From positions 1 to 60,358 of IMG/VR virus record IMGVR_UViG_3300042884_000410: a stretch of 60,358 nucleotides of DNA, one strand, 5' to 3'. Below are positions 500-5,130 of the stretch, piece after piece. The position numbers and the translations under genes were made by a program. The notes beneath the pieces are model-generated. The model searched no databases, was not told the origin of the DNA, and saw nothing but the letters and a program-made list of their open reading frames with translations. How positions within the stretch are numbered: position 1 is the first letter of the stretch; every line of letters begins with the position of its first letter. This stretch comes from a virus.

Positions 500-580
500 A
501 ATTTCTGAAAGAAATTTGGCCCAGTTGGTTGGTGTCGACATCGATCACTTCGGTCGGTGCCGGCAATCCTCTTCGGAGCC
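500..580 (+). ncRNA. Leader RNA element, family A copy 1
   Basis: AATTTCT (500-506), loop GAA (507-509) and AGAAATT (510-516) form a 7-bp hairpin. It is followed by GGCCCAGTTGGTTGG, the family A box. A second hairpin, CGATC-ACTTC-GGTCG, follows at about 542-556. The element lies directly upstream of the gene at 587. The hairpin stem differs in sequence from the other copies but keeps full pairing. This copy lacks the T-arm-like hairpin seen in the copies at 1354 and 2197. Confidence 0.6.
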
Positions 581-586
581 ACCAAC

Positions 587-1354
587 ATGGCAAAGCCCAC
601 CAAGCCCCTCGGGATCGTTCTCCACCGTGGCCGCTCTCCGTTTGCAGACGGCCAGTATGTCGTGATCGCCCTCCTGGGCAAGTCGAGCAACGAGAAGACG
701 GGGGGCATGATCCAAACGTATGTGATCGTTGACGATGCGGCCAAGCCCACCGAAACGGTTAAGGCGGGGACCGACAGCATCGTGTGCGGCGACTGTCCCC
801 TCCGTGGCATCCTCGGGAAGATGGGCCGCGCCTGCTATGTGAACCTTGGGCAGGGGCCGCGAGCGGTTCATCAAGCGTACCTTGCGGGCAAATACGCGGA
901 GTACGATCCCGCGATCCACGACAGATTTTTCGCCGGGAAGATGATCCGGTGGGGCACCTACGGCGAGCCGGTTTTGATCCCCCTGGCGACGGTTCAACAC
1001 CTCAATGGGCTGGCGAGCGGGTGGACGGGCTACACCCACCAGTGGAGCAAGCCGGAATTCGCAGCCTACCGAGACGTTTTCATGGCCAGTGTCCACGACA
1101 GCCGCTCGGCTGACCACGCGAAGCACCTCGGCTGGCGGTACTTCAGGTCGGCGGTTGACGCTACCCCCGGCCCTGGCGAGATCGTGTGCCCCGCCTCGAA
1201 AGAGGCTGGCAAGCGCACCACCTGCGCCGACTGTGGCATCTGCAACGGTCGTGGTCCGAATGACACCCCCAACCGGGTTTCGGTCGTGATCGCGATTCAC
1301 GGCGGGTTCGGTGTGATGGCAGCCGCCAAACACACCCCCGCCATCGCGTCTTAA
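587..1354 (+). CDS. Conserved phage-type protein with Cys clusters, unknown function
   Basis: The product is 255 aa. ATG at 587 (MAKPTKPL) is preferred over the ATG at 557 because the latter lies inside the leader RNA. Visible features are an N-terminal segment reading KTGGMIQTYVI, then CGDCPLRG at residues 67-74, CYVNLGQGP at 83-91, and a C-terminal cysteine cluster (CP...CADCGIC). The cysteines suggest zinc binding. The pattern CGDCP..CYVN.GQGP recalls a conserved phage protein group of unknown function; this is from memory, not a search. It is the first gene of the left plus-strand arm and is followed immediately by a family A leader whose hairpin overlaps its stop codon. Confidence 0.8.
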   Translation: MAKPTKPLGIVLHRGRSPFADGQYVVIALLGKSSNEKTGGMIQTYVIVDDAAKPTETVKAGTDSIVCGDCPLRGILGKMGRACYVNLGQGPRAVHQAYLAGKYAEYDPAIHDRFFAGKMIRWGTYGEPVLIPLATVQHLNGLASGWTGYTHQWSKPEFAAYRDVFMASVHDSRSADHAKHLGWRYFRSAVDATPGPGEIVCPASKEAGKRTTCADCGICNGRGPNDTPNRVSVVIAIHGGFGVMAAAKHTPAIAS

Positions 1355-1437
1355 ATCCCCGAAGGGGATTCAGCCCAGTTGATTGGCAGCGGTTGGCTGA
1401 CGGAAGCCACACCCCGGTTCGATTCCGGGGGACCGCT
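1354..1437 (+). ncRNA. Leader RNA element, family A copy 2 (tRNA-like)
   Basis: Hairpin AATCCCC (1354-1360), GAA, GGGGATT (1364-1370); box CAGCCCAGTT (1371-1380). AGCGGT (1388-1393) pairs with ACCGCT (1432-1437) and encloses two hairpins. The first is TGGCT-GACGGA-AGCCA (1394-1409). The second is CCCCGG-TTCGATT-CCGGGG (1412-1430), a textbook tRNA T-arm. There is no normal tRNA acceptor stem or anticodon arm order, so this is a tRNA-like three-way junction rather than a tRNA gene. It lies between the genes ending at 1354 and starting at 1478. Confidence 0.7.
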
Positions 1438-1477
1438 CTGTTTCGCGTTCGGTTCACCACACCAGAGGGCATTCACG

Positions 1478-1702
1478 ATGGCACGACACCACGACAGCGA
1501 CGGTTACATCTCCGCAAAGCACACCGCTGTGGCAATGGCGCAGCACACCAACCAAACCCGCTATGTGATCGAAATCGACAGCGGAGAGGGGCGGGCTTTC
1601 ACCTCCTGCGGAGAGGACTACATCGACGGGCCGGAATACATCGCGTTCGACGGGATGGTGTATGCGACCGTCTACCCGGACGGGGAAATCCACGCGGAGT
1701 GA
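1478..1702 (+). CDS. Small early protein, unknown
   Basis: The product is 74 aa (MARHHDSDGY...DGEIHAE), acidic overall. ATG 1478 follows GAGGGCATTCACG; the same start context precedes the gene at 1800. The longer frame from 1379 would translate the structured leader RNA and is rejected. No family is recognised. It is the second gene of an early array in which each gene has its own leader RNA. Confidence 0.7.
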   Translation: MARHHDSDGYISAKHTAVAMAQHTNQTRYVIEIDSGEGRAFTSCGEDYIDGPEYIAFDGMVYATVYPDGEIHAE

Positions 1703-1709
1703 AGCGACG

Positions 1710-1758
1710 GCGGCTGGCAGACGGGAGCCACCACCCTGGTCCGATTCCAGGGGGCCGC
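1710..1758 (+). ncRNA. Partial family A leader (T-arm three-way junction only)
   Basis: GCGGC (1710-1714) pairs with GCCGC (1754-1758). Inside are TGGC-AGACGGGA-GCCA (1715-1730) and a T-arm-like hairpin CCCTGG-TCCGATT-CCAGGG (1734-1752, counting the stems). The upstream 7-bp hairpin and CAGCCCAGTT box are absent. The downstream sequence to the next start shares GAGGGCATTCACGATGGC with the region before 1478. Confidence 0.6.
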
Positions 1759-1799
1759 ATTGGTTACGGGTTCGGGTTCACACACTGAGGGCATTCACG

Positions 1800-2198
1800 A
1801 TGGCTGAAACACTGACGATTGGCGACGTTGTTCTGACGGTCTGCGGACGGGATCGGGACTGGAAGGGCCGCACTTGTTACGAGGTGTCGATTGCCTTCCC
1901 CGAAGGGTATTCCTACACCGACAAGCACGGGGAAACGCAGTTCATCGACCGGGGATTCATCCACCGGGAACGTGACCTGCGGTCTGGCTGCCACGGCGGA
2001 ACGGAACGCGACGGCATGGAATCCCTCCTGGGATTTCTGACGGCGGCGGCGGAATCGCATGGCTACACCGTGCGGACGGGCCGCGAGAGCGACAACAGCG
2101 ACCTGTTCCCCGCCTTCATCGTGGAATGGGCTTACCAGAATGCTGACGAGATCAGCATCGCATCCTTCGATACGGATCGCCCTCTCACGGGTGCGTAA
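1800..2198 (+). CDS. Small early protein, unknown
   Basis: The product is 132 aa (MAETLTIGDV...), acidic at the C-terminus. ATG 1800 is chosen because it sits in the repeated start context; the longer frame from 1662 would run through the leader RNA. No family is recognised. Its stop codon overlaps the first hairpin of the next leader RNA (2197-2213), as also happens at 1354. Confidence 0.75.
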   Translation: MAETLTIGDVVLTVCGRDRDWKGRTCYEVSIAFPEGYSYTDKHGETQFIDRGFIHRERDLRSGCHGGTERDGMESLLGFLTAAAESHGYTVRTGRESDNSDLFPAFIVEWAYQNADEISIASFDTDRPLTGA

Positions 2199-2277
2199 TC
2201 TCCGAAGGAGATTCAGCCCAGTCCATTGGCAGCGACGTTGGTTGACCGCAAGGGTGGTTCGATTCCGCCCTGTCGCT
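2197..2277 (+). ncRNA. Leader RNA element, family A copy 3 (tRNA-like)
   Basis: Hairpin AATCTCC (2197-2203), GAA, GGAGATT (2207-2213). Compared with the copy at 1354 one pair is exchanged compensatorily. CAGCCCAGT follows. AGCGAC (2231-2236) pairs with GTCGCT (2272-2277), where copy 2 has AGCGGT/ACCGCT, again covarying. Inside is a T-arm-like hairpin GGGTGG-TTCGATT-CCGCCC (2252-2270). The hairpin before it is weak (TTG/CAA). Confidence 0.7.
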
Positions 2278-2312: not shown

Positions 2313-2708
2313 ATGCACACGCCAAACATTCCGCAGAAAACTCTCCCGGCCCACTTCATGGTCGGTGACGATGGCAACCTGTACCGCGAGGTCAGGGTTG
2401 CAGGGGGGCTTTCGTTTGTCCCGGTTCGGCTTCTCTACCGCTACCACCACCGGACCATCCGGTCTGTGGCTGACATGAAAGCCTGCCTGCGGGCCGGGAA
2501 ATACGCTTGGCCCGGTGGCTATGCCTGCTACTTCATCACCTCTGACGGGGAAATCCTGTCCTTTGAGGCAGTGCGGGAGGAACTGACGCAGGTCATGGAC
2601 GCAATCAAGCACAACCTGCGGTCTGGCTGGAAGGTGGTCGGCATGGCCTGCACCGCAGAGGACGACGAAACCGCACGGTGCTGCCACACCGGCAAGGAAA
2701 TCGACTGA
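2313..2708 (+). CDS. Small early protein, unknown
   Basis: The product is 131 aa (MHTPNIPQKT...). ATG 2313 follows GGGAGACACGACG; the frame upstream from 2226 overlaps the leader RNA. The C-terminus carries CTAEDDETARCCH, a possible metal-binding patch. No family is recognised. It is separated from the next gene by a different structured leader (family B). Confidence 0.75.
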   Translation: MHTPNIPQKTLPAHFMVGDDGNLYREVRVAGGLSFVPVRLLYRYHHRTIRSVADMKACLRAGKYAWPGGYACYFITSDGEILSFEAVREELTQVMDAIKHNLRSGWKVVGMACTAEDDETARCCHTGKEID

Positions 2709-3479: not shown

Positions 3480-3490
3480 TCTGCGGCCCA

Positions 3491-3559
3491 CTGCCAACCC
3501 CCGTGACTGAGACACGGGGGCCAGTTGTGGATCGGGGTTCGACTAACAAGGGAGGTGTA
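3491..3559 (+). ncRNA. Leader RNA element, family B copy 2
   Basis: CCCCCGTG (3498-3505), a 7-nt loop ACTGAGA, and CACGGGGG (3513-3520) form a perfect 8-bp hairpin. CCAGTTGTGGATCG and a T-loop-like GGGGTTCGACT follow, then GGGAGGTG before ATG 3560. The stem covaries with the copy at 2723-2745, and the box AGTTG-N-GGATCG is conserved. Confidence 0.55.
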
Positions 3560-5039: not shown

Positions 5040-5082
5040 AAGTAACGGAGTTACTTCAGCCCAGTTAGATAGCAACGACAAG
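5040..5082 (+). ncRNA. Leader RNA element, family A copy 4
   Basis: AAGTAAC (5040-5046), loop GGA, GTTACTT (5050-5056), then CAGCCCAGTT (5057-5066) and AGATAGC. This is the same hairpin-plus-box plan as the copies at 500, 1354 and 2197, with a completely different but fully paired stem. The downstream part is a terminator-shaped hairpin instead of the T-arm junction. The GGA triloop would be a suitable CsrA target. Confidence 0.65.
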
Positions 5083-5130
5083 GACAGACCCCGGCAGCCA
5101 ACTTCGGCTGACCGGGGTCTGTTCGTTTTT
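5074..5130 (+). terminator. Intrinsic-terminator-like hairpin in the 5' leader (possible attenuator)
   Basis: ACAGACCCCGG (5084-5094) pairs with CCGGGGTCTGT (5112-5122), continued inward by CAGCC/GGCTG. The outer AACGA (5074-5078) can pair with TCGTT (5123-5127), and GTTCGTTTTTA closes the structure. It lies between the promoter at 5001 and the start at 5150, so it would act as a conditional terminator on the DUF932 transcript unless it ends transcription coming from upstream genes. Confidence 0.6.

Follow-up and report, generated by a model that had tools for sequence, protein, structure and literature searches.

Small tRNA-like elements between the early genes of a phage: candidate processing signals that share gene gaps with hammerhead ribozymes

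Introduction

Why would a phage carry small tRNA-like structures between its early genes? The question is raised by the IMG/VR virus record IMGVR_UViG_3300042884_000410, a stretch of 60,358 bases that we analyzed in full and refer to as the window. It encodes a P22-type portal, a terminase, a serine recombinase, a possible tyrosine integrase and tail genes, and its early genes are oriented rightward from about 0.5 to 8.1 kb. A first-pass annotation had described three leaders in this region as possible tRNA mimics that might be recognized by RNase P or RNase Z. Relatives of the window terminase at 77–99% identity are other IMG/VR contigs, and an alignment search placed relatives at 51–53% identity on contigs of Planctomycetia/Pirellulaceae metagenome-assembled genomes (MAGs). 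This suggests that the host is probably a planctomycete, these terminase relatives being the sole basis for the assignment. No close prophage of the phage was found in cellular genomes.

The punctuation of transcripts by tRNA-like structures is already known in mitochondria and for MALAT1. In plant mitochondria, the tRNA-like t-elements found at gene borders set mRNA ends via RNase P and RNase Z (PMC11658184), and mascRNA is cut by both enzymes, so that in animals a reduced structure is enough for processing if it has a short D-arm with GG (PMC11693755). Phage transcripts processed by host RNase P include the C4 antisense RNA of P1/P7 and M3 RNA (PMC11143913). Hammerhead ribozymes flanking prophage genes have been proposed to cut long phage transcripts into gene-length mRNAs (PMC3088659), and the reason for phage hammerheads between genes has stayed open. 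We found no description of tRNA-like punctuation in phages in the open-access papers searched, which included few subscription papers and no preprints.

Results

Three elements combine an acceptor-like stem, a small arm and a T-arm

The three structures all lie on the plus strand. Element 1 (1388–1437) has an acceptor-like stem at 1389–1394/1431–1436 with an outer pair 1388/1437, a D-like arm at 1395–1408 with the loop GACGGA, and a T-arm at 1412–1430 with the loop TTCGATT. Element 2 (1709–1759) is closed by 1710–1715/1753–1758 and contains a D-like arm at 1716–1729 and a T-arm at 1734–1752 with the loop TCCGATT. Element 3 (2231–2277) is closed by 2232–2237/2271–2276 with an outer pair 2231/2277, and contains a weak inner arm at 2238–2251 (TTG/CAA) and a T-arm at 2252–2270 with the loop TTCGATT. 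The closing stems around T-arm hairpins reported by the first-pass annotation are thus present at all three places; their length, given there as 5–6 bp, is 6 bp (GCGGTT/GACCGC, GCGGCT/GGCCGC and GCGACG/TGTCGC), and two of the stems gain one more A-T pair on the outside.

In each window element, the 6-bp T-stem joins the acceptor stem without a gap and forms a 12-bp stack, which is the length of the stack in tRNA (7 + 5). Across all copies, including those of related phages described below, the plan consists of a 6–7-bp acceptor-like stem, one small arm and a canonical T-arm, with an acceptor/T stack of 12–13 bp. We consider the small arm to be D-like because it directly follows the 5′ acceptor strand and because its loop contains GG, as observed in elements 1 and 2, whereas no GG in a clear D-loop is present in element 3 or its homologues. 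The spacing between the D-like arm and the T-arm is just 0–4 nt and the anticodon arm is absent. The annotation had located a hairpin in the anticodon-arm position of two elements: the hairpins exist, but they are better read as D-like arms. Its statement that there is no D-arm and no normal acceptor stem does not hold, since in most copies the acceptor/T stack is as long as that of tRNA and a GG-containing D-like arm is present.

RNA folding reproduced the structure described here in elements 1 and 2 and gave a very similar fold in element 3 (z-scores of −3.06, −1.38 and −2.00 for elements 1–3). A strict descriptor of the stems and T-loop matched exactly three times in the 60 kb, on one strand and within 900 nt, as compared to five matches in 1.05 Mb of shuffled sequence, which indicates that the three elements are not chance folds. 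The three structures are confirmed as real.

The elements are placed between a stop codon and the next ATG, on the sense strand and 33–41 nt before the ATG in the six genomes whose early region we mapped (the window, G001, G002, G003, G004 and G006). Element 1 precedes a 74-aa gene (1478–1702, plus strand) that is 76% identical to the gene of G002 in the same place. Element 3 precedes a 131-aa gene (2313–2708, plus strand) whose homologue in G003, 71% identical, likewise follows a tRNA-like element. The tail that follows the acceptor stem reads NCUG(G), not RCCA. We also observed that the leader behind each element (1437–1477, 1759–1799 and 2277–2312) repeats the T-loop-like words GGTTCGATTG and GGGTTCGGGTTC.

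Covariation and relation to tRNA

Related phages carry further copies: two to four in each of four close relatives (L090–L093) and in a fifth, G006, and a single one in the fragment G011. Model R1, built from eight copies, recovered copies outside its building set, namely element 3, L228:1962–2010 (41.7 bits) and L229:2318–2367. We then assessed covariation on 12 distinct copies from the window and five relatives. Standard pairs made up 96.8% of the pair cells, and 31 cells had changed on both sides, relative to 9.1 ± 2.3 in shuffled data; none of 500 shuffles reached 31. Sliding the pairing partners out of register destroyed the signal. These counts come from a model-fitted alignment, and an earlier MAFFT alignment, made with eight copies, led to the same conclusion. 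While the stems vary, the T-loop TTCGA (TCCGA once) and, in 10 of the 12 distinct copies, the loop motif CGG are kept.

The elements are not tRNAs, as the annotation had held: ARAGORN detected no tRNA or tmRNA in the window and no tRNA in the relatives, and none of the three elements matched Rfam at curated cut-offs. It is very improbable that they are degraded tRNA genes or chance folds. By BLAST, their T-arm letters match the T-arms of actinophage tRNA genes, as decay from a tRNA gene would predict, but these are the only letters that match tRNA genes, and a permissive Rfam scan found no tRNA-family match at E-values up to 5. On the strength of this absence and the compensatory changes we reject a degraded tRNA gene, and the shuffle control and the fact that all six mapped genomes have elements at sites A and C also stand against such an origin or chance. 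The best sub-threshold Rfam match of any copy was that of L228:1962–2007 to RF01684, mascRNA-menRNA (32.8 bits, E = 0.0061, cut-off 42.5). No C4 antisense RNA family was matched in the permissive scans.

Searches with R1 found no match in 18 records of the 51–54% terminase clade, in the neighborhood of more distant homologues of the gene at 557–1354, or in 199 genomes of the family Pirellulaceae. A T-arm pattern returned the near clade together with tRNA genes and chance matches, and a stretch of element 1 used as a search pattern returned the near clade and one chance match. Since the R1 searches beyond the clade came up empty, the tRNA-like element is known here, as far as these sequences go, from this phage clade alone.

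A hairpin-box precedes most elements

Directly upstream of elements 1 and 3, and of all copies found in relatives, lies a 39-nt hairpin-box: a 7-bp stem of free sequence with a GRA-type triloop, followed by a box that reads CCCTSTTGG-TTGG or CCTCTGG-TTGG (CCCAGTTGRTTGG in the window). Element 2 has no hairpin-box, and the annotation, which had set all three leaders behind a box, was right for the other two. The copy before element 1 (1354–1392, plus strand) has the hairpin AATCCCC-GAA-GGGGATT, which starts on the stop codon, and its last bases overlap the acceptor strand; the copy before element 3 (2197–2235, plus strand) overlaps the stop codon of the preceding gene. Hairpin-boxes precede terminators as well as tRNA-like elements. 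In the window, the copy at 5040–5078 (plus strand) is followed by an intrinsic terminator (about 5091–5130) before a DUF932 gene, and the copy heading the early genes (500–538, plus strand) is followed by a long imperfect hairpin (533–565) and no tRNA-like element. We counted 49 matches in 14 loci. The hairpin is fully paired in 36 distinct copies, with a single G-U, and the box is uniform within one genome and differs between genomes. A scan of IMG/VR with the box pattern gave six matches, all due to chance, and model R2 gave only weak, scattered, chance-like matches in Pirellulaceae genomes.

The hairpin-box may act as a site for a regulator or for antitermination, or as a 3′-end element; several other roles were discarded. 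Its GGA/GAA triloop recalls an N4-type DNA-hairpin promoter, but for a promoter that reads into the genes the conserved box is on the wrong side, and none of the window proteins matched an RNA polymerase family, although several large ones have no match at all. A CsrA site does not fit, three of the four window loops being GAA. Reading the box as a D-arm (GCC..GGY) held in just 27% of cells in the register tested, and we do not claim it. No sigma-70-like promoter was found at the boxes. In the related loci L231, L235–L239 and L241, a gene near the terminase is immediately preceded by a hairpin-box, a copy that R2 does not find in the window; the leader behind this box contains GAGCGGAACCGCT and its Shine-Dalgarno sequence lies inside a GTAAC..GTTAC hairpin.

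The frequent pairing of box and element raises the possibility of a switch, in which a phage or host factor (or a protein that binds tRNA, such as EF-Tu or a synthetase) would bind the tRNA-like part and control read-through or translation, the box being its site. A box precedes two of the three elements in the window and every copy found in relatives, and the wording of the box, uniform per genome and different between genomes, is as expected for a co-evolving factor. Yet element 2 has no box and boxes also occur before terminators without a tRNA-like part, and we consider such a switch unlikely.

Alternating structured elements in the early gene gaps

In the six mapped genomes, structured elements occupy most gene gaps, and they fall into two classes with a tendency to alternate. 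The first is the hairpin-box followed by a tRNA-like element or a terminator; the second comprises type II hammerheads, a motif that we label M3 and the window's box-less element 2. At the gap where the window has element 2, G001 and G002 (loci L090/L091) present a type II hammerhead. The flanking genes are conserved: the upstream gene is the 1478–1702 gene compared with G002 above, and the downstream gene (132 aa, 1800–2198, plus strand) is 84–86% identical to its counterparts behind the hammerhead in G002 and G001. In G004 and G006, more distant homologues of the same downstream gene (44–48%) are likewise preceded by hammerheads. Other gaps show further exchanges. A hammerhead and M3 replace each other before a gene that is 96% identical in G004 and G006, and, in an alignment made by eye, one apparently homologous terminator follows a hairpin-box in G001/G002 and a hammerhead in G003/G004/G006. 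As judged from these genome comparisons, no other evidence speaks as strongly as the positional swap for a task common to unrelated RNAs at these gaps.

The hammerheads of the relatives have the core CUGANGA / GAAA / UH; stem II is open, and weak in some copies, while stems I and III are closed. They match RF02276 at 27.5–32.3 bits (E down to 0.0012), below the gathering cut-off of 37 bits. The core descriptor found no hammerhead in the window. M3, the third intergenic motif, occurs at 2706–2766 and 3481–3541 of the window and in L228, L229, L230, L232 and L233; it is an interrupted hairpin with conserved strands CGG..C..CCA / TTGNGGATCG and has no Rfam match. It could be a further RNA that is cleaved.

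More distant phages (about 49% protein identity), which lack tRNA-like elements, carry type II hammerheads near the homologue of the 557–1354 gene, preceding its neighborhood (L012 7473, L013 7324, L014 7359, L015 7122, L020 1505 and L031 7411). The sister-clade phages L012–L024 have another long conserved leader within about 330 nt upstream of that homologue, reading GATCnCGGGCAGGTGGC ... GCTGCCTGCCCG.RTTCGG.TGCCG.

The map also bears on whether the elements act as DNA. They could be conserved borders that promote the exchange of gene cassettes by homologous recombination, and at site A the same element is indeed followed by different genes in different genomes. We regard this as quite improbable: the stems change on both sides and keep their pairing, which a homology linker would not need.

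Discussion

With a probability of roughly 55%, we propose that the elements serve as mini-tRNA processing signals at which host RNase P and/or RNase Z cuts the polycistronic early transcript between its genes. Once a gap is transcribed, its RNA would fold so that the 6–7-bp acceptor-like stem stacks on the T-arm, as in the structure described above. The D-like arm, with GG in its loop, may then dock on the T-loop and create the elbow of a tRNA although the anticodon arm is missing. RNase P and RNase Z recognize RNAs that combine an acceptor/T stack with an elbow. The predicted cut sites are the 5′ side of the acceptor stem for host RNase P and/or, for RNase Z, the position between the discriminator base and CUG. 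The upstream mRNA would be released with the hairpin-box at its 3′ end and the downstream mRNA would receive a leader of about 33–41 nt, the early transcript being split, presumably to the benefit of the phage, into gene-sized mRNAs. The elements would thereby do the job of the type II hammerheads found at the same or neighboring gaps of sister phages. Indeed, since a hammerhead replaces an element in a sister-phage gap, the elements probably mark cut sites of long messages.

Punctuation by RNase P/Z, one of several roles offered by the first-pass annotation, is the best-supported of them, given the covarying tRNA-like folds, their placement in gene gaps and the hammerhead swap; the cleavage itself we infer. 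Several points speak against it: the tail is not RCCA, element 3 lacks a clear GG and the Rfam scores fall below curated cut-offs. E. coli-type RNase P favors an RCCA tail. In a Pirellulaceae MAG, none of the 13 plus-strand tRNA genes read encodes CCA, so that the NCUG(G) tail is no objection in itself and the lack of CCA is in keeping with tRNA precursors of the host style. It is also possible that the tRNA-like part acts jointly with the box in some other way, because most copies are tied to a box and boxes also precede terminators.

Alternatively, the elements might be structural leaders that remain uncut and shield the downstream mRNA from ribonucleases or insulate the translation start from the preceding gene. 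The uniform spacing of 33–41 nt to the ATG and the stable folds are consistent with this, and a hammerhead could take the place of such a leader, since the 5′ end that it leaves is structured as well. But any stable hairpin would do for that purpose, yet the T-loop of tRNA and the CGG are kept, and exchange with a self-cleaving ribozyme points to cutting. We therefore think uncut leaders rather unlikely.

The design of the elements resembles human mascRNA or the tRNA-like domain of tmRNA, not a decayed tRNA. With mascRNA/menRNA (RF01684), found in the vertebrate MALAT1 and MEN-beta transcripts, they share the acceptor/T stack, a canonical T-loop, no need for an encoded CCA and a short D-like arm with GG directly behind the acceptor strand (10 of the 12 distinct copies; not the element 3 type). 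They differ in having no anticodon-side arm at all and in their phage/bacterial setting, with several copies between protein genes, and homology is not implied. The tRNA-like domain of tmRNA likewise has an acceptor stem, a T-arm and part of a D-loop without an anticodon arm, but the phage elements have no message part. Plant mitochondrial t-elements also place a tRNA-like structure at mRNA borders, but they are homologous to tRNA genes and have a typical tRNA-like structure, whereas the phage elements have neither an anticodon arm nor a tRNA-family match. The C4 antisense RNA and M3 RNA of phages have other folds and roles and are not repeated gene punctuation. The type II hammerheads (RF02276) occupy the same gaps in sister phages but are self-cleaving and of another fold; unlike them, the tRNA-like elements would need host enzymes.

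More tentatively, and with considerable doubt, we suggest that these phages evolved a repeated mini-tRNA module that enlists host RNase P/Z as an exchangeable substitute for a self-cleaving ribozyme, with the M3 motif as a further cleaving RNA in these gaps, such that nearly every early gene would be cut out by one of several unrelated RNA devices.

Because element and hammerhead exchange at one gap, the processing hypothesis can be tested directly with purified RNase P and RNase Z. If the hypothesis is true, the elements would constitute a minimal natural substrate for both enzymes. Our results further suggest that unexplained intergenic RNAs such as the M3 motif may be additional cleavage devices.
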